From a virus, in IMG/VR virus record IMGVR_UViG_3300030202_001889, positions 1-27,107 of that record: a DNA stretch of 27,107 nucleotides; one strand, given 5' to 3'. The position numbers and the translations under genes were made by a program. Below are positions 2,915 to 18,228 of the stretch, piece after piece (within the stretch, counting starts at the first letter, position 1; each line of letters starts with the position of its first letter). The notes below the pieces were generated by a model. That model saw only the letters and a list, made by a program, of their open reading frames with translations. It was not told where the DNA came from and ran no database searches.

Positions 2915-3299
2915 ATTGAGCTTAGAAATTGTAAAACCTAAGGCTTTTGCAGAACAAAGATTATTTCAAGCTATCCTGGTACAGGCGTTAGAGGACGCTG
3001 TAAATACATCAAATTTTAAAAAAGAAACGTATCACAAACATGATTCTCATACGTGGTTTGTGAGTAATAGTGAGGATTTTCAAGATGTGTGTTGGGGTGC
3101 TGACATGGATCCTGATTTTGTACGGGGTGAATATTTAAAATTAGTAGATGCAGGTAAGATACATTTTACTAAGTTACAGTTATCCTGGATCCGTTATCGA
3201 CATTTATATAGGAAGTATCGAGAGTGTAATACTAAGGAAGAAAGAAGAAATATTAAGAAACTTATTTTGAAGGAAAATTTAAAAAGATTAGAGGACTAG
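2874..3299 (+). CDS. conserved phage hypothetical protein (141 aa or slightly shorter)
   Basis: From memory this belongs to a family common in marine and alphaproteobacterial phages, with a signature like RLFQAILVQALEDA (29-42), HDSHTWFVSN, then FQDVCWGADMDPDFVR and a basic C-terminal helix (KYRECNTKEERRN). The function is unknown. The Trp/Phe-rich CWGADMDPDFVR segment followed by a helix looks like a small DNA- or protein-binding domain. The ATG at 2874 makes a 41-nt overlap with the gene before. A start near residue 14 (a TTG) would remove most of the overlap, so the N-terminus is uncertain. It is the last gene before the iteron block. Confidence 0.75.
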   Translation: MNCAPNLLKFLGIKLSLEIVKPKAFAEQRLFQAILVQALEDAVNTSNFKKETYHKHDSHTWFVSNSEDFQDVCWGADMDPDFVRGEYLKLVDAGKIHFTKLQLSWIRYRHLYRKYRECNTKEERRNIKKLILKENLKRLED

Positions 3300-3320
3300 T
3301 CATGGGGGACGAATGAATTT

Positions 3321-3372
3321 TACTCCTGGGGGGAAAAACCAGAGAGCAATTAATGTTAAACCCCCAAGAGTA
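3321..3372 (+). repeat. hairpin with G/C-run arms
   Basis: TACTC-CT-GGGGG (3321-3332) pairs with CCCCC-AA-GAGTA (3361-3372), giving 5 + 5 base pairs with a 2x2 internal mismatch and a loop of about 28 nt. It lies 20 nt after the stop of the upstream gene. Without a T run it is not an obvious terminator, but it could terminate or stabilise the transcript. Confidence 0.45.
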
Positions 3373-3489
3373 ATTAACCAAAGTTTATAAGTGTTACAAA
3401 ACACAGTCAAAGTGTACCACAATACCGGATACCGGACAATGGAAAAATATCTACTATATAGATTATCTAGACCCCTGACCAATAAAAAG

Positions 3490-3503
3490 TACCCCTGGGG
3501 GTA
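3490..3503. repeat. 14-bp palindrome
   Basis: TACCCC-TG-GGGGTA: perfect 6-bp arms around a 2-bp centre, immediately before the GGTGTCCCT array. Size and symmetry suit a dimeric DNA-binding protein site. Confidence 0.5.
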
Positions 3504-3508
3504 AAAGA

Positions 3509-3611
3509 GGTGTCCCTGGTGTCCCTGTAGACTATTATTCAATTATATCAACACTTTTAATCGATTTAGTACTGTCCCTGTGGTGTCCCTCTGGTGTCCC
3601 TTAGGGACACC
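3509..3611. repeat. GGTGTCCCT iteron array
   Basis: Exact copies of GGTGTCCCT start at 3509, 3518, 3582 and 3593. The first two are directly tandem and the last two 11 bp apart, about one helical turn. A partial copy (CTGTCCCTG) starts at 3572. The last copy is followed, after one base, by its exact reverse complement AGGGACACC (3603-3611), making a 19-bp near-palindrome. Such arrays are typical of replication initiator, partition or repressor sites. Confidence 0.75.
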
Positions 3612-3656
3612 TACTACCCACTCTTGCGGGAACGCTATCGAAACTTTTTGGGGCTA

Positions 3657-3685
3657 TTACTTTTTGATGAAATAATCTATATAAT
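3657..3685 (+). promoter_or_regulatory. promoter with leaderless spacing
   Basis: TTACTT (3657-3662) and a perfect TATAAT (3680-3685) are 17 bp apart. The ATG of the next gene begins nine bases after the -10 box with no Shine-Dalgarno sequence, so the transcript probably starts at or within a few bases of the start codon. Confidence 0.5.
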
Positions 3686-3693
3686 AGAAAATT

Positions 3694-3915
3694 ATGTATA
3701 AGAAATTTAAAGCATTGGGTCAATTAGGTAAGTATTTATATAATCAAGGAAAAGACTACTATAAAGCTGGTGGAAAAAAAACAAAAGATATTATGAAAGA
3801 ATCTAATGTATCTAAAGAAGTTGCTAAATCAGACATAAAATCTGAAATAAAAAGAAAATTTATTAGAGGCGGTAAAAAACCATCTGACTTTTACAAAAAA
3901 CCTAAAGGAAGATAA
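3694..3915 (+). CDS. small Lys-rich basic protein (73 aa), probably leaderless
   Basis: Not recognised. A very basic protein: a Tyr/Lys-rich N-terminal helix (YKKFKALGQLGKYLY), a GGKKTK linker and a basic C-terminus ending in KKPKGR. There is no hydrophobic membrane segment. The high charge suggests binding to DNA or RNA, or a minor virion component, but nothing specific. The stop overlaps the ATG of the small terminase gene by one base (TAATG), so the two are translated together. The only start signal is the TATAAT promoter directly upstream. Confidence 0.65.
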   Translation: MYKKFKALGQLGKYLYNQGKDYYKAGGKKTKDIMKESNVSKEVAKSDIKSEIKRKFIRGGKKPSDFYKKPKGR

Positions 3916-4445
3916 TGCCTGGTGGACTTAAAAAGAAATCACTAAGAACTGAATTAGATTTAACTCCAAAACAAAAAATGTTTGTTGAAATATATGTTAA
4001 AGATTGGGGTTCTATTACACAAGCTGAAGCGTTAAAGCGTGCAGGCTATGTGTGTACTAATGAAAAAGATTATGGATCTGTTGCATCAAGAATGTTATCT
4101 AGAAAGCACAGCCCTCATATAGCAAATTATTTTGATAAATTATTTGATCTTGAAAAAAAGAAATATGAAAGTGACAACCTTAGACGATTCAAAAGGTTAG
4201 AAAGAATTGCTGACAAAGCCGAAAAAGATAAACAATATGCTGCAGCTATAAATGCTGAGTATAGATCTGGTCAACTAGCAGGTGCTTATGTTGATAGAAA
4301 AGAGGTTACTGTTAGTGGTCTGGAGGGTATGTCACGTGAGCAACTTGAAAAAAAGCTTGAGGAATTATCAAACAAGATCGATGGCTACAATGCCAAAACG
4401 ATTGAAATTGAATCCGAAGACGTTACAGCAATTGAAGAAAGCTAG
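3915..4445 (+). CDS. terS: terminase small subunit (176 aa)
   Basis: Recognises the phage packaging site and loads the large terminase. The N-terminal part has the terminase helix-turn-helix arrangement: LTPKQKMFVEIYVKDWG (about 17-33), then ITQAEALKRAGY (34-45). Next come SRMLSRKHSPHIANYFDKL and a long charged helical oligomerisation region (KKYESDNLRRFKRLERIADK). AINAEYRSGQLAGAYVDRKEVTVSGLEGMS is the usual C-terminal stretch of this family before a coiled coil. Length is normal for the family. The identification rests on motif pattern and on the large subunit in the same genome. Unusually, the large subunit lies 3.9 kb downstream rather than next door. Confidence 0.85.
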   Translation: MPGGLKKKSLRTELDLTPKQKMFVEIYVKDWGSITQAEALKRAGYVCTNEKDYGSVASRMLSRKHSPHIANYFDKLFDLEKKKYESDNLRRFKRLERIADKAEKDKQYAAAINAEYRSGQLAGAYVDRKEVTVSGLEGMSREQLEKKLEELSNKIDGYNAKTIEIESEDVTAIEES

Positions 4446-4867: not shown

Positions 4868-5275
4868 ATGTCTAATAAAAATGGGGAAACTAGACTATGG
4901 CAAAAAGTAAAAAAAGGACTGACTGATTGCTTTCTTACCCGCATAGAATCTAGCACAATCAATGGTATTCCTGATATTCATGCTGTTACAGATTCACAGG
5001 TTTTTTGGATAGAACTTAAATCAGATTCATTAAGTTATCCTAAGCTAAATAAGTGGCAAATTGTATGGATTAACAAATATGTCATGGCAGGTGGTAAAGT
5101 AATTATCTTGAAAGAGACCCTCTTGCAGAAGTCTCTTAAACTGTACAGACCGGTGTCCGTGTTTACTGATGCTCGTTCACTGATCCCGTTTGCCTCGTTC
5201 TCGTTCCCGTTACAATGGCCAACGGTCCAGCAGCGCATGCTTCAGGAGCTGGCCCTGCCTCCGGATGCAGCCTGA
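4868..5275 (+). CDS. VRR-NUC-type nuclease (135 aa)
   Basis: Shows the compact VRR-NUC/PD-(D/E)XK pattern: an N-terminal helix (ETRLWQKVKKGL), GIPD at 33-36 carrying the catalytic Asp, then WIELKS at 47-52 with Glu49 and Lys51, and the usual C-terminal LNKWQIVWINKYVMAGGKVIIL helix-strand. VRR-NUC proteins of phages cut branched DNA or act as replication/repair nucleases. The last 40 residues (from about position 95) lie in DNA of markedly higher GC, where the CTCGTT repeats begin. They keep a family-like FTDARSL and FPLQWPTV pattern, so the reading frame seems intact. No ribosome site is visible before the ATG. Confidence 0.8.
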   Translation: MSNKNGETRLWQKVKKGLTDCFLTRIESSTINGIPDIHAVTDSQVFWIELKSDSLSYPKLNKWQIVWINKYVMAGGKVIILKETLLQKSLKLYRPVSVFTDARSLIPFASFSFPLQWPTVQQRMLQELALPPDAA

Positions 5276-5499
5276 TCCTCGTTCTCGTTCCCTGGCCACT
5301 GAACTTTTCCCTCTTTGTTTGTTCAGTGGCCTGGGATCCAGCAGCAGGTGATACAGCTCAGGTCTCGTTTCTCGTTGACAAACCTCGCTCGTTATGTGAT
5401 GACCAACTACACTGGTCCCCCATCTGCAGCTGGTGAGCTCAGGAGGCAGGTGAAGCTGTCGTTTCTCGTTCTCGTTTATGGATAAATCTCGTTCTCGTT
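5172..5499 (+). repeat. CTCGTT polar repeat cluster
   Basis: Twelve CTCGTT hexamers start at 5172, 5194, 5200, 5278, 5284, 5364, 5371, 5388, 5465, 5471, 5488 and 5494. Four pairs are exact 12-bp tandems of period 6 (5194, 5278, 5465, 5488). Six more copies follow at 5651, 5673, 6330, 6355, 6510 and 6542, and one at 7328. All are on the plus strand; I found no reverse-complement copy in the island. They fall in coding and non-coding DNA and in different frames, so selection appears to act on DNA or RNA, not protein. Confidence 0.8.
5294..5331 (+). repeat. strong 11-bp inverted repeat
   Basis: GGCCACTGAAC (5294-5304) and GTTCAGTGGCC (5321-5331) are perfect arms around a 16-nt pyrimidine-rich loop. 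Two more C-G pairs extend the stem past one T-T mismatch. A further GGCCACTG lies at 5504-5511 and an inverted CAGTGGCC at 5885-5892, so the same word is dispersed in the island. It sits 18 nt after the nuclease stop. With no T run downstream it is not a standard terminator. Confidence 0.65.
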
Positions 5500-5572
5500 C
5501 ACTGGCCACTGGTGAGCCCCCGCAGCGTGAGTTTCAGGGGGTGCTGGGATCTCCTTCGGCAAAAACTTTTGC

Positions 5573-5601
5573 TTGACTGGTATCCCATGATGTCGTATGG
5601 T
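5573..5601 (+). promoter_or_regulatory. promoter P2 with GGTATCCCAT spacer
   Basis: TTGACT (5573-5578) and TATGGT (5596-5601) are 17 bp apart. The spacer begins GGTATCCCAT and continues with TGTC, matching promoter P3 240 bp downstream almost base for base. It would give a leader of about 16 nt before the 5624 gene. Confidence 0.65.
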
Positions 5602-5623
5602 CAGACTAAACAAAGGAGAACTA

Positions 5624-5818
5624 ATGGCAATAGATTTCGATGCCCTCGATCTCGTTCGAGGAGAGAACAAAGCTCGTTCCTACAACAAGAGAGTAGATGA
5701 GCTACAGCAGCAGGTGACTGACCTTCAGGAGCTGGTAACTCAGATGGTAAAAGAACTTCCCGTGGAAAAGAAATGGTCGTTTGAAGAAAGATTAAAAAAA
5801 ATAAAAGAAAAGCCTTGA
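5624..5818 (+). CDS. small coiled-coil protein (64 aa)
   Basis: Not recognised. A heptad-like helix dominates (about residues 22-45, DELQQQVTDLQELVTQMVKE), followed by a charged tail (EERLKKIKEK). The start is the ATG behind AAAGGAGAAC; an earlier in-frame ATG at 5597 falls on the promoter -10 region and is rejected. It is the first gene of the island with its own promoter. Its stop codon overlaps the -35 box of the next promoter. A dimeric adaptor or regulator is plausible, nothing firmer. Confidence 0.7.
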   Translation: MAIDFDALDLVRGENKARSYNKRVDELQQQVTDLQELVTQMVKELPVEKKWSFEERLKKIKEKP

Positions 5819-5843
5819 CAGGTATCCCATCGTGTCTTATATA
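5815..5843 (+). promoter_or_regulatory. strong promoter P3 with GGTATCCCAT spacer
   Basis: A perfect TTGACA (5815-5820) and TATATA (5838-5843) are 17 bp apart; the spacer again reads GGTATCCCAT, two variable bases, TGTC. The transcript would have a leader of about 60 nt with an internal AGGAGG and a CAGTGGCC word before the 5913 gene. Confidence 0.7.
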
Positions 5844-5912
5844 TAGGACGCGGCCATGTTAGGAGGTAGGGAAACCGTAAACTTCAGTGGCCGTTAACCA
5901 AAGGAGAACTAC

Positions 5913-6074
5913 ATGAGCAAAGAAAAATCAATTCAAGAAACCGTCCCACACAAGGATGTCGAAGAGGCCAACAAACCTGAACCAGGAAAAATATATGCAC
6001 TGACTGGTGGACCAGGCACGCGCTGCATTGCAAACGGAAATACATGGAAAGAATCAGAGGTGAACGATGAGTGA
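5913..6074 (+). CDS. small conserved-looking phage protein (53 aa)
   Basis: A hydrophilic start (MSKEKSIQETVPHKDVEE) leads to a compact motif, KIYALTGGPGTRCIANG (26-42), with the Gly/Pro turn and aromatic strand of a small beta domain. From memory, short phage proteins with LTGGPGTR occur elsewhere in marine phages without a known role. It has a good ribosome site (AAAGGAGAAC) and is the first gene after P3. It overlaps the next gene by 8 nt. Confidence 0.7.
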   Translation: MSKEKSIQETVPHKDVEEANKPEPGKIYALTGGPGTRCIANGNTWKESEVNDE

Positions 6075-6429
6075 TGAACTGAAGGAATGGTTTCTAATGC
6101 CAAGCATAAAGGAATGCCTCGCAGAGTACGAAAAGCAGGACATAGGTTTAATTGCAGACATAGCTAAACACGGCTGTTCAGGAGGTGTCGCTGGTATTAT
6201 ATATTACGATGAAACAACTTCGTTTCATGAGCACCATCAGGAGGAGATCTGGCAACTAGTCCAGGACCACGCGGATGCAGCAGGACTGAAGAACGGTGAG
6301 TTTCTACAACACATATCGAAAGATCCAAGCTCGTTGAGGCATTTACTCAATGATCTCGTTTGGTGGGCGGTCGAAGTTCGGGCCCAAGAGCTGCACGAGC
6401 TGGTACCTGCAGCTGGAGCTGAAGCGTGA
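6067..6429 (+). CDS. DUF7222-like phage protein (120 aa)
   Basis: An acidic helical protein with a recognisable core: ADIAKHGCSGGVAGIIYYDETTSFHEHHQEEIWQ is the central pattern (about 30-63, quoted in part as HGCSGGVAGIIYY and FHEHHQEEIW). A C-terminal helix ends in WWAVEVRAQELHEL. I associate this H-G-C-G-G-I-Y-Y / F-H-x-x-E-E-I-W pattern with a phage family of unknown function (DUF7222, from memory, so tentative). The last 30 residues lie in CTCGTT-containing DNA. It overlaps the genes on both sides (8 nt and 4 nt), making an operon from P3. Confidence 0.7.
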   Translation: MSDELKEWFLMPSIKECLAEYEKQDIGLIADIAKHGCSGGVAGIIYYDETTSFHEHHQEEIWQLVQDHADAAGLKNGEFLQHISKDPSSLRHLLNDLVWWAVEVRAQELHELVPAAGAEA

Positions 6430-6527
6430 CCTTCGTTGTCGTTTGGCTGTGCCTTCTGTTTATGTTTCCCGGTTTCACATTAGCTGGGACTGGGATCCTG
6501 ATGCTCTCGCTCGTTGGTATACTTTGA
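6426..6527 (+). CDS. tiny membrane peptide (33 aa), GTG start
   Basis: GTG overlaps the previous stop (GTGA) and follows a GGAG sequence at a suitable distance. The product is almost wholly hydrophobic (VVVWLCLLFMFPGFTLAG, then ILMLSLVGIL), one or two membrane passes. The frame remains open and hydrophobic after the TGA, up to 6635, so this may be the first half of a longer membrane protein interrupted by one stop codon. Confidence 0.5.
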   Translation: MTFVVVWLCLLFMFPGFTLAGTGILMLSLVGIL

Positions 6528-6635
6528 TTCCCACATGTCGTCTCGTTTATAGAGCTGCACCCCCCTGCGCAGAAGCTACTGCTGAGTACAGGACTGGCGC
6601 TGGTAACTGCTGTGGTAAAGCTCGGTGTCGTTTGA
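6528..6635 (+). pseudogene. in-frame continuation of the membrane peptide past a TGA
   Basis: In the same frame as the 33-aa membrane peptide, 35 further codons follow the TGA at 6525 and end at another TGA (6633). They encode a short polar stretch (ELHPPAQ) and a second clear hydrophobic helix (KLLLSTGLALVTAVVKLGVV). There is no ATG, GTG or TTG near its beginning, so it could be made only by readthrough or in a relative with an intact codon. Point-mutation pseudogene, recoding and sequencing error are all possible. Confidence 0.4.
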
Positions 6636-6686
6636 AGTAATGGATAACATCTGTGTTGGATTACTATGGAGTTCCCCCCCTGCGCA
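6560..6686 (+). repeat. direct repeat CCCCCCTGCGCA
   Basis: Two exact copies of the 12-mer CCCCCCTGCGCA lie at 6560-6571 and 6675-6686, 115 bp apart, at the right edge of the GC-rich island. Direct repeats at an edge could be recombination footprints, but no partner copy is seen at the left edge. Confidence 0.55.
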
Positions 6687-6780
6687 CACAGATTACAAAC
6701 TAATAAGTTTGGTTTTTACTTTAGAATTATTCTAAAAGATAATTGTTGCGTTGATTGGTGGGATTTGATAAGAGAAGATT

Positions 6781-6828
6781 GTGGTTGAGATATGTACATC
6801 AGAAATTGAAGATATCGCACTCAACCAC
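6781..6828 (+). repeat. 9-bp inverted repeat upstream of the 6860 gene
   Basis: GTGGTTGAG (6781-6789) and CTCAACCAC (6820-6828) are perfect arms around a 30-nt spacer. The AAGGAG ribosome site of the next gene lies about 20 nt after the stem. A leader hairpin or an operator are both possible. Confidence 0.5.
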
Positions 6829-6859
6829 GCAAACCGTTTAACAAACAAGGAGAAAAGTT

Positions 6860-7282
6860 ATGGGACTAGATCAACACGCACACCTACGAGGTCAAAAGGT
6901 AGATTGGGACAAATACTATTCTGATGACCAAGAGGAACAATCAAAAGTTTTTGTGTGGAGAAAACACGCAAGACTACAACAGTTCATGGCGAAGAAATGG
7001 GACGAACAAAACCAACACCATGAGCATGACGGAATGTTATCACATTTAGGATTTAATTCTGACTGCGAAGCCCCTGTCTATATCACTCAAGAAGTTGCCA
7101 AAGAGTTAGCCGAACAAATACAAGAGGGTTATAAAGATTATGTAGCCGAAGACGGATTTTTCTGGGGGCAACAGTTCCAAGAGGAAAGTGTGAAAGAGTA
7201 CAAGGAACAAGATATCAAGTTCCTTAAATTTTGCGAACAAGCTATCAATGATAAAAAGGTCGTTGAATATTGGTGTAGTTGG
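6860..7282 (+). CDS. conserved phage protein of the MGLD..WRKH family (141 aa)
   Basis: Starts MGLDQHAHLRG and contains VWRKHARLQQFM (31-42), a polar loop, APVYITQEVAKELAEQI and a Gly/Phe-rich AEDGFFWGQQ segment before a charged C-terminal helix with KEQDIKFLKFCEQA. This layout is shared with small proteins of cyanophages and other marine phages, sometimes mislabelled phosphoglycerate kinase; no enzymatic activity is established. The start has a clear ribosome site (AAGGAGAAAAG). The stop TAA spans 7283-7285 and overlaps the ATG of the next gene. Confidence 0.75.
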
Positions 7283-8204: not shown

Positions 8205-8356
8205 GTATCTATCGCACACCTATAGCAAGGCTCATAATCAATCTCAAAATCGTTTTTAATTTTTACGCCATCAGGGTTCGCGTTGCTGTGCTGGGTTTTT
8301 TGAGGCGAAAGGGTTTACAAAGTAGGATATACAAATATACTAGGGTCCCAAACGAG

Positions 8357-9835
8357 ATGAAAATAGAAAACCTTACTGAAGACGAATTAAAAGACATTAT
8401 TCTGAAAAAGCAGTTGGAGTGGATCAAGTTATGCCAGGATAATTTTTTAATTTTTGCAGAGTCTGTCTGGCAAGATTTTATATATCGTAAAACAAAGGAC
8501 CCAAAGAACTATGGGCACCATCAAATTATTGCTGAAGCGTTTCAAGATATTGCAGATGGAGACGCAAAGAGGCTCGTGATCAATATGCCTCCACGTCATA
8601 CTAAATCTGAATTTGCATCATATTTATTCCCCGCTTGGTATATTGGAAAGTATCCAAAGAAAAAAATTATGCAGGTATCCCACAACGCTGAACTTGCTTC
8701 AAGGTTCGGTAGCAAAGTTAGAAATTTAATGAACACCAAGGAGTATAAAGAAATATTTGGAAATGTTACATTGAGAGAAGACAGTAAAGCAAAAGGCAGG
8801 TGGGAAACCAATCATGGTGGTGAATACTTTGCAGCGGGTGTTGGCGGATCTATCACAGGTCGAGGGGCCGATTTGCTTATTATTGATGATCCACATACGG
8901 AACAAGATTCCTTGTCGGATACAGCTATGGAACGTGCTTACGAATGGTACAGTTCAGGACCCAGACAGCGTTTACAACCCGGTGGCCGTATTCTTGTAGT
9001 CATGACTCGTTGGGCTACTGACGATCTTACAGGAAGGTTGGTAAAAGCACAGAGTGGTACTAAAGCGGATCAATGGAAAGTAATTTCATTTCCTGCAATC
9101 ATGCCTAACGATAAACCTGTATGGCCTGAGTATTGGAGTAAAGAAGATTTAGATTCTGTGAAAGCCTCAATCTCTACAAAAAACTGGAACGCACAATACA
9201 TGCAGGACCCAACCTCAGAAGAGGGTGCAATTATAAAAAGGGAATGGTGGCAAGATTATAATAAGGAGCAACTTCCAAGACTGCTCCATGTGATACAATC
9301 ATATGATACTGCATTTTCTAAAAAAGAAACTGCCGACTATTCTGCTATTACTACTTGGGGTGTCTTTGAACCTGTAGAAGGTTATGAGAAAGCAATTATA
9401 TTATTAGATGCTATGAAGGGTAGGTATGATTTTCCAGATTTAAAAAATGTTGCACTAGAGCAGTATCATTACTGGGAACCAGAAACTGTAATCATTGAAG
9501 CTAAAGCTTCAGGACAACCACTTATTCATGAACTTAGACGTGCAGGAATCCCTGTAATTGATTATGTTCCAGCTAGAGGACGAGACAAGCATACTAGAAT
9601 AAACAGTTGTGCTCCTGTATTTGAGTCTGGTATGGTGTGGGCACCTTTGGACGAACACTGGGCACAGGAGGTTATTGAGGAATGTGCAGCGTTTCCTAAT
9701 GGTCAGTATGATGACTATGTTGATTCTATGACCCAAGCTGTGTTAAGATATCGACAAGGTGGATTTGTTTCAACATATTCTGATGATTGGGATGATGAGC
9801 CAATGAAATTAGAAAAAGAGTATAAATATTATTAG
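8357..9835 (+). CDS. terL: terminase large subunit (492 aa)
   Basis: The ATPase-nuclease motor that cuts concatemeric DNA and pumps it through the portal. Residue numbers are from the ATG at 8357. The atypical Walker A box MPPRHTKSE is at 77-85, Walker B LLIIDDPH at 173-180, and a coupling motif VVMTRWATDD at 214-223. The C-terminal RNase H-like nuclease has Asp317 (SYDTAFS), Glu381 (VIIEAKASG) and the DDYVDS acidic group at 452-457. The frame is open to a GTG at 8288, adding 23 residues, but those look unlike coding sequence and the ATG is preferred. It lies 3.9 kb from the small subunit gene. The upstream hairpin may separate transcription units. Confidence 0.95.
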   Translation: MKIENLTEDELKDIILKKQLEWIKLCQDNFLIFAESVWQDFIYRKTKDPKNYGHHQIIAEAFQDIADGDAKRLVINMPPRHTKSEFASYLFPAWYIGKYPKKKIMQVSHNAELASRFGSKVRNLMNTKEYKEIFGNVTLREDSKAKGRWETNHGGEYFAAGVGGSITGRGADLLIIDDPHTEQDSLSDTAMERAYEWYSSGPRQRLQPGGRILVVMTRWATDDLTGRLVKAQSGTKADQWKVISFPAIMPNDKPVWPEYWSKEDLDSVKASISTKNWNAQYMQDPTSEEGAIIKREWWQDYNKEQLPRLLHVIQSYDTAFSKKETADYSAITTWGVFEPVEGYEKAIILLDAMKGRYDFPDLKNVALEQYHYWEPETVIIEAKASGQPLIHELRRAGIPVIDYVPARGRDKHTRINSCAPVFESGMVWAPLDEHWAQEVIEECAAFPNGQYDDYVDSMTQAVLRYRQGGFVSTYSDDWDDEPMKLEKEYKYY

Positions 9836-14785: not shown

Positions 14786-14900
14786 TTCATTAAGTGGAGG
14801 AGTTAAATCTGGGCCACCGCCTAAGAGAGGACCGAATCCACAAGGAATAAAAGTTCAAGATGGCAAAAAACTCTTACGAAAGTCTTTCAGAAAAAAATAA
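14766..14900 (+). CDS. SGGVKSGPPPKRGPNPQG-type miniprotein (about 44 aa), start uncertain
   Basis: A frame open from inside the portal 3' end encodes NSLSGGVKSGPPPKRGPNPQ, a Gly/Pro/Lys-rich sequence I have seen after portal genes in related marine phages. The likely start is the TTG at 14766; no ATG exists in the open frame. Its last 14 codons overlap the beginning of the homing endonuclease gene in another frame and look unlike the first part (KKLLRKSFRKK), so the original 3' end was probably replaced when the endonuclease gene arrived. Confidence 0.5.
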   Translation: MKQRKNNSLSGGVKSGPPPKRGPNPQGIKVQDGKKLLRKSFRKK

Positions 14901-15222
14901 AATACTTTTCCTAGCTGGTCTTTTTGATGGTGAAGGAAGTTTTGGTATTTGGGGTAAGGGTAATGGAAGAAAAACATTTCAATGTGGTATTGAGATGTGT
15001 GATAAAGATATTTTAGATAGATTTTCTGATTTTTTTGGCGGTAATGTAATGAAAGTGCGAATAAGAAAGCCAAATTGGACACAAACCTGGAGATGGAGAC
15101 TATCTGGTACAAGGGCTTACGAATGTATAGATATTTTGATAGAATACATGTGTTTAAGAAGACAGGAGAAATACTATAATGTGGTTAAGCGCGATAAAAT
15201 TAGCCGTCTCTGCTGGAAGTAA
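14860..15222 (+). CDS. LAGLIDADG homing endonuclease (120 aa)
   Basis: Contains one catalytic LAGLIDADG motif, LAGLFDGEGSFGI at 18-30, with the acidic residue at its end, followed by the alpha-beta core (CDKDILDRFSDFFGG) and the TWRWRLSGTRAYECIDIL segment typical of single-motif enzymes that dimerise. It makes a site-specific double-strand break that copies the gene into homing-site-free alleles. It sits between the portal-linked miniprotein and the holin-like gene, overlapping both (41 nt upstream, 44 nt downstream), with no sign of an intron or intein. The ribosome site is poor. At 120 residues it is near the lower end of the family size, so activity is uncertain. Confidence 0.85.
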   Translation: MAKNSYESLSEKNKILFLAGLFDGEGSFGIWGKGNGRKTFQCGIEMCDKDILDRFSDFFGGNVMKVRIRKPNWTQTWRWRLSGTRAYECIDILIEYMCLRRQEKYYNVVKRDKISRLCWK

Positions 15223-17598: not shown

Positions 17599-17816
17599 TG
17601 GACATAGATACAATATCACTCGTACAACATAAAGTTAAGAAAGCTCTAGCTAGACTCAAGTCACACGCTATATATGGTGTTGACACCATGGAGAAACTAC
17701 AATATGTTAGGGGTCAAATCAGATCTCTTGAAGATCTGCAACAGGATCTAAAAGACCTGCTGACAACAACGGAGTATGAAGATGATAGAGTCCACGGAGA
17801 CACCGAAACGGACTGA
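17598..17816 (+). CDS. small coiled-coil phage protein (72 aa)
   Basis: A helical, charged protein (LVQHKVKKALARLKSHAIYG, then YVRGQIRSLEDLQQDLKDLL), typical of short conserved phage proteins near the capsid genes. From memory, homologues occur in the same place in related marine phages. It starts with ATG overlapping the methyltransferase stop, and its 3' end overlaps the co-chaperonin gene by 41 nt. Function unknown. Confidence 0.7.
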   Translation: MDIDTISLVQHKVKKALARLKSHAIYGVDTMEKLQYVRGQIRSLEDLQQDLKDLLTTTEYEDDRVHGDTETD

Positions 17817-18228
17817 AGCTCTTCTAGATGCCTACAAGGCAAAAGAAGAAATAGAAACAGTCCTTGATCCAAAAGCGATCGACAAATCAACATTAGATAA
17901 ACTACCAAACCCAACTGGATATAGACTTTTAGTTCTGCCTTTTGCAGGACCTAAGAAAACTAAGGGTGGTCTTTGGTTATCTGATGCAACACAAGAAACA
18001 ATACAGATGACTACAGTTTGTGGTCTGGTATTAAAAATGGGAGATCTTTGTTATCACGATAAAGATAAATTTCCTAAAGGGCCTTGGTGCAAATTAAATG
18101 AATGGATAATTTTTAGTAGGTACGCAGGTTCAAGATTCAAAATAGACGGAGGAGAAGTAAGAGTTTTAAATGATGATGAAGTCATTTCAACTATAAGCGA
18201 CCCCAACGATATTTTGCACCATTACTAG
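17776..18228 (+). CDS. GroES-like co-chaperonin (150 aa)
   Basis: The Cpn10 fold is readable: PNPTGYRLLVLPFAGPKKT (about 45-63), a mobile-loop region (KGGLWLSDATQE), then VCGLVLKMGDLCYHD, a KLNEWIIFSRYAGSRF strand and a C-terminal IDGGEVRVLNDDEVIST. The N-terminal 40 residues are a phage-specific extension. Phage co-chaperonins such as T4 gp31 replace host GroES and let GroEL fold the phage capsid protein. The position, just before scaffold and capsid, suits this. Two starts exist (17776 and 17782); both follow GGAG. Overlaps the previous gene by 41 nt. Confidence 0.85.
   Translation: MKMIESTETPKRTEALLDAYKAKEEIETVLDPKAIDKSTLDKLPNPTGYRLLVLPFAGPKKTKGGLWLSDATQETIQMTTVCGLVLKMGDLCYHDKDKFPKGPWCKLNEWIIFSRYAGSRFKIDGGEVRVLNDDEVISTISDPNDILHHY

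Follow-up and report, generated by a model that had tools for sequence, protein, structure and literature searches.

The short repeats that precede the small terminase gene (terS) of this virus raise the question of what such an array is for and of which protein reads it. The first-pass annotation had put forward four roles: a replication origin, a partition site for the product of the ParB-like gene at 1179, an operator, or the terminase recognition site. They are weighed here using the window, that is, the whole stretch of 27,107 nt that was analysed, together with related viral contigs.

Organization of the element

The box GGTGTCCCT occurs in exact form five times in the window, on the + strand at 3509, 3518, 3582 and 3593 and on the − strand at 3603-3611, while a degenerate copy (ACTGTCCCT, 3571-3579) lies exactly 11 bp ahead of the box at 3582. 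This recount of four direct and one inverted exact copies plus a degenerate one agrees with the first-pass annotation, which had described four exact 9-mers, a partial copy and a reverse complement in about 100 bp of non-coding DNA. The geometry that it gave was also recovered. The tandem boxes at 3509 and 3518 touch, the two boxes placed one helical turn apart (3582 and 3593) are separated by 11 bp, and the last pair, described as a 19-bp near-palindrome, reads GGTGTCCCT-T-AGGGACACC at 3593-3611 and is symmetric apart from the centre base. Likewise, the adjoining 14-bp palindrome corresponds to the near-palindrome TACCCCTGGGGGTA at 3490-3503, and the whole block is upstream of terS, which starts at 3915. 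On the likely gene map the 103 bases from 3509 to 3611 are non-coding, with the ORFs on either side ending at 3299 and starting at 3694, and the array region had no match to any RNA family or tRNA. When up to one mismatch was allowed, 9 box matches were counted in the window, against a mean of 2.75 in shuffled sequences keeping the dinucleotide content (none of 100 shuffles reached 9). A 9-mer with at least three G/C was present at most 3 times per 110 bp in 200 shuffles and 5 times in the window.

In addition, the array is enclosed by a pair of 22-nt inverted arms (3445-3466 and 3672-3693, 86% complementary) that was absent from the first-pass annotation. The arms provide two inverted copies of AATCTATATARTAG, and within the window the exact motif is found in these two arms only. 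The conserved element as a whole is larger, about 240 bp (approximately 3445-3693), with the boxes at its core. Its features and those of the terminase genes are the following:

3445-3466, unstranded: left arm of the outer inverted repeat, with AATCTATATAGTAG on the − strand at 3451-3464 (complementarity; motif conservation)
3490-3503, unstranded: near-palindrome TACCCCTGGGGGTA of 14 bp, just to the left of box 1; a terminator-like hairpin is listed here on the − strand
3509-3517, + strand: box 1, exact GGTGTCCCT; position conserved in relatives
3518-3526, + strand: box 2, exact GGTGTCCCT, in tandem with box 1; position conserved in relatives
3527-3570, unstranded: AT-rich spacer of 44 bp with the IHF-like TATCAACACTTTTA (consensus match)
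3571-3579, + strand: box 3, degenerate (ACTGTCCCT); intact at the same place in many relatives
3582-3590, + strand: box 4, exact GGTGTCCCT, 11 bp from box 3
3593-3601, + strand: box 5, exact GGTGTCCCT, 11 bp from box 4
3603-3611, − strand: box 6, inverted copy, forming the 19-bp near-palindrome together with box 5
3623-3635, unstranded: candidate cut or contact site TCTTGCGGGAACG, conserved 3′ of the array
3672-3693, unstranded: right arm, with the promoter-like AATCTATATAATAG at 3674-3687 (+), just ahead of the next gene
3694-3915, + strand: small ORF (73 aa) separating the array from terS, in a slot that differs from phage to phage
3915-4445, + strand: TerS, proposed reader of the site (PHROG 51; Pfam Terminase_2; HTH matching the SF6 G1P DNA-binding domain)
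8288-9835, + strand: TerL, proposed nuclease and motor (PHROG 38, E 2.3e-119; 69.7% identical to HTVC023P TerL)

A second inverted repeat, TTACTCCTGGGGG / CCCCCAAGAGTAA, was observed at 3320-3373, just past the ORF end at 3299. It is 92% complementary, has a 28-nt loop and resembles the palindrome at 3490.

Conservation, gene neighbourhood and host

Scanning viral contigs for two nearby boxes gave at least 120 stretches. The majority of the matches listed had a common layout, and a minority were unrelated chance or repeat matches. The boxes start at −86, −77, −22, −11 and 0 in 107 of the 142 marine viral arrays with enough flanking sequence and at −84, −75, −22, −11 and 0 in another 18, usually followed by the inverted box; boxes 1 and 2 are contiguous (9-bp period) and boxes 3 to 5 are spaced at 11 bp. 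The spacer between both groups measures 44-46 bp, has 22% GC and contains a near-invariant TAyCAA. A match to the IHF consensus with 0-1 mismatch was present in 83 of 136 spacers versus about 22% of shuffled spacers, an enrichment that is only suggestive because the arrays are related; the match in the window's own spacer is degenerate. The sequence TCTTGCGGGAACG, with up to two mismatches, was located 3′ of the array in 117 of 151 relatives, and both arms lie at near-constant distance around the array in 107 of 133, the other long genomes having at most one exact match each to the arm motif. The first-pass annotation had proposed looking for the repeats in close relatives, and 153 distinct related arrays carry them, beside terS wherever the contig reaches that far. 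No DNA similarity to named phages was detected for positions 3300-4445.

Of the 90 arrays in a first set, 87 are followed by the TerS gene on the same strand, and so are 142 of the 153 in a larger one; every contig of the remaining 11 ends less than 1 kb from the array. In this linkage to a small-terminase gene the element agrees with phage packaging sites in general. The distance from array to TerS ranges from about 105 to 1250 bp among relatives because small genes are inserted between them, and the usual upstream neighbour is a homologue of the ORF at 2874. It was observed that the slot at 3694-3915 is occupied by different small genes in different phages, including a basic family (195 aa in the phage of L034) that splits by box type in 14 sequences.

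Pfam Terminase_2 was assigned to TerS in 19 of 21 relatives. The structural model of the window's TerS had a medium overall confidence (pLDDT 73), reaching about 90 in the HTH. The predicted HTH aligned with the DNA-binding domain of SF6 G1P over 56-57 residues (Z 7.6, rmsd 1.7-1.8 Å, 26-27% identity), covering the whole domain; this Z score is moderate, and Pfam agrees with the assignment. The match came from a second structural aligner, while Foldseek gave no significant PDB match for the model and a profile search of PDB sequences with TerS returned nothing useful. TerS thus falls in the G1P/Terminase_2 family, as in pac sites of the SPP1/SF6 type.

The closest named relatives are the HTVC023P-type pelagiphages (TerL 69.7% and TerS 48% identical). 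In HTVC023P, immediately ahead of terS, a pair of adjacent CTAGGAAA boxes is followed by a spacer that contains ATCAATACTTCTAG and then by boxes at 11 bp plus an inverted copy. The layout is the same as in the window, but the box (CTAGGAAA) and the arm sequence are others. Among its relatives the boxes, whose types were read by eye, change as one: CTAGGAAA, CTAAGAAA (L259), CTGGGAAA (L264) or TTAAGAA-like (L272-L275). No comparable array was seen at the more divergent TerS loci of HTVC027P and 023Pt_psg01, and the main paper on the HTVC023P group (PMC9599517), searched for repeat, iteron, palindrome or origin wording, contained no such element. Outer inverted repeats with other sequences precede terS in separate lineages as well. 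Those of L211 (24 nt) and of L273 and phage DSL-LC04 (36 nt, 83% complementary) beat all shuffles, that of HTVC023P (27 nt, 78%) is weaker than these, and none was found upstream of terS in L278 and L276. In DSL-LC04 (L129, 20554-20773) the 36-nt repeat precedes the terS operon, its arms being 131 nt apart, and encloses an IHF-consensus match (AATCAATAGGTTA).

Bacterial genomes gave four matches, three of which look like chance. The real one is a phage contig in the Pelagibacteraceae single-cell genome AG-919-D18 (CACMNP010000007.1, L451; 47.8 kb), which carries the full array, a TerS 77% identical and a ParB homologue. AG-919-D18 is probably an infected SAR11 cell. This phage contig, together with the relationship to HTVC023P, indicates SAR11 hosts.

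Exchange of box alleles

A TerS-based search that ignored the boxes revealed relatives in which nearly all copies are GGTGTATCT. The 153 distinct arrays comprise 75 with GGTGTCCCT, 72 with GGTGTATCT and 6 mixed with GGTGGGTCT, figures that are not a census because they come in part from pattern searches limited to GGTGTNNCT. Mapped by parsimony onto FastTree trees, the box type needs at least 14 changes for TerS, 11 for ORF-2874 and 9 for ParB. The most similar pairs differ in every box and in a large part of the spacer although at least one of their flanks is almost unchanged, and an identical TerS HTH string accompanies both alleles (13 and 20 genomes). On these comparisons, the array exists as discrete alleles that switch as a set while TerS stays the same.

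Because an identical HTH goes with two alleles, this domain does not visibly read the switching bases. The TerS HTH residues were considered as readers of the variable bases and discarded, as no column segregated, and among close relatives no column of TerS, ParB or the ORF-2874 protein follows the allele. The other nearby proteins of close relatives did not segregate either, except for three poorly covered columns in one 87-aa ORF. The strongest split in a genome-wide scan (15 segregating columns, 5 versus 9 sequences) was in the patchy basic ORF between array and terS, and a second one (14 columns, 4 versus 3 sequences) fell in an ORF located 3′ of terL; given the small number of sequences, ancestry confounds both.

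Our tentative proposal, which is possible rather than probable, is that the array gives the packaging site an exchangeable identity tag, with cassettes of about 105 bp (GGTGTCCCT, GGTGTATCT or mixed GGTGGGTCT) being swapped and read by something other than the TerS HTH. Such a reader, for example a host protein, a competing phage or satellite, or another phage protein, would select for matching box copies within a genome. The matching copies and the swaps may reflect shape-based recognition by TerS with homogenisation of the repeats, a reader other than TerS, or escape from a competitor. Among the 153 arrays no satellites with the array but without terS were seen, arrays of that kind being contigs that end early. 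How TerS recognises pac has been called an open question (PMC9611059), and natural phages sharing the same TerS HTH and differing in two clean alleles offer a ready means of telling whether it is the bases or the shape of the DNA that TerS reads.

Candidate functions of the element

We consider that the element at about 3445-3693 is probably the packaging-initiation site (pac or cos) of this SAR11-phage lineage, bound by TerS. This reading is favoured because of the linkage to terS, the type of TerS, the geometry and the pac- or cosB-like layout, and it is held as probable, not as firm, because no reading of the switching bases by TerS is visible and because binding, cutting and genome ends at the site are predictions. 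Of the proposed roles, terminase recognition is the one supported, as a putative assignment, on account of the constant terS linkage, the SPP1/SF6-type TerS and the layout. As we infer it, a TerS ring of the SPP1/SF6 type would assemble on the box array, and bending of the AT-rich, IHF-like spacer would bring boxes 1-2 to boxes 3-6. TerL, positioned by TerS, would next make the first cut close by, for which TCTTGCGGGAACG and the outer arms are possible places, and packaging would run toward terS; the binding, the bend, the cut and the direction are all inferred steps. The contig ends that face terS show a modest excess within the array, but they are scattered and do not fall on one base, and they may be assembly breaks in a variable region.

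SPP1 and SF6 package by headful. In SPP1, pac consists of sets of direct repeats at the terS promoter, and the TerS proteins of SPP1 and SF6 are interchangeable though their repeats differ (PMC4737164). The window resembles these phages in having direct-repeat sets near terS and in the Pfam family and HTH fold of TerS, and the interchangeable TerS with different repeats echoes the cassette switching described above. In contrast to SPP1/SF6, its array is fully upstream of terS, is far more regular, and has an inverted box, an outer inverted repeat and an allele switch by cassette. In lambda cosB, TerS sites are placed on either side of an IHF site and one of them is inverted (PMC4669245). The boxes of the window similarly flank an IHF-like spacer, a likeness that comes from a consensus match alone, although there are six short boxes instead of the three R sites of lambda. 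Moreover, the window's TerS is from another family, cohesive ends at a nearby cosN belong to the lambda type, and the recognition residues do not follow the site sequence as in the lambda type, the same HTH being found with two alleles. The pac site of P1 has two groups of repeats and involves IHF. Its length is about 160 bp, within which there are seven hexamer repeats (PMC10028697). Short repeated boxes are thus common to P1 and the window, but those of P1 are Dam sites inside pacA while the window boxes are not GATC and lie outside the gene.

The main rival is a replication origin, in which the boxes would be iterons for a phage initiator, the AT-rich spacer would melt and the inverted promoter-like arms would prime both forks. 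Iterons beside an AT-rich stretch, a single array per genome and promoter-like arms in opposite orientation fit this idea, and a reader other than TerS would account for different boxes beside an identical TerS HTH. We nevertheless consider an origin unlikely: when GC skew was mapped, as the first-pass annotation had suggested, it was positive to the left and to the right of the array in four long genomes, with no inflection at the site. The constant neighbour is terS, the primase, helicase and polymerase genes being kilobases upstream, and none of the replication genes in the tested set follows box type. The origin is left unsupported because the skew keeps its sign and the replication genes lie further upstream. 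An activator or repressor bound to the phased boxes could also control the promoter-like right arm, making the array an operator or enhancer of the terminase operon, for which the 11-bp phasing would suit a protein on one face of the helix and AATCTATATAATAG lies just ahead of the start of the next gene. We give this quite a low probability, and not a lower one because of that promoter-like motif just 3′ of the array. In the long genomes this motif is not repeated at any other gene, a generic scan does not call it a sigma-70 promoter, the mirror-image left arm, which faces away from any − strand gene, would be superfluous, and a search for a regulator following box type found none. It must be noted that a promoter role of the right arm is compatible with the packaging, partition and origin readings alike.

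There is a slim chance that the arms are opposite-strand nick sites of a genome terminus, the 200-250 bp or so between them being duplicated as a long terminal repeat at the virion ends. Their symmetry and near-constant distance around the array would agree with it, as would the outer inverted repeats of L211 and DSL-LC04; however, no contig was seen with the array at both ends, long contigs run through it, and contig ends are not at the arms. Finally, the ParB-like gene (phrog_12305, E 2.8e-26) located 1.5 kb upstream had led to the idea of a partition site bound by its product, which we regard as very improbable. The idea fails because phages lacking the gene keep the site: the array is intact in L048, L058, L082 and L115, where the genes that flank ParB elsewhere are close together and ParB is missing from its place between them. 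In other phages ParB is only 35-45% identical while the box is unchanged, and among close relatives no ParB column follows box type.

No description of the packaging site of this lineage was found in the literature searched. The element is a landmark among viruses related to a highly abundant ocean group (PMC12753301), and a compact, computable site of this kind would allow packaging type, satellites and transducing particles to be searched for in uncultured ocean phages.

Some other traits of the window were recorded. Positions 5000-7000 have a G+C content of about 0.46, compared with about 0.34-0.36 elsewhere, and contain small ORFs; this region is possibly acquired DNA. Behind the portal gene, a 120-aa ORF (14860-15222) with the motif LAGLFDGEGSF, recognised by eye, looks like a free-standing LAGLIDADG homing endonuclease. 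A 150-aa ORF beside the capsid genes (17776-18228) matches in position the GroES co-chaperonin of HTVC023P and DSL-LC04.
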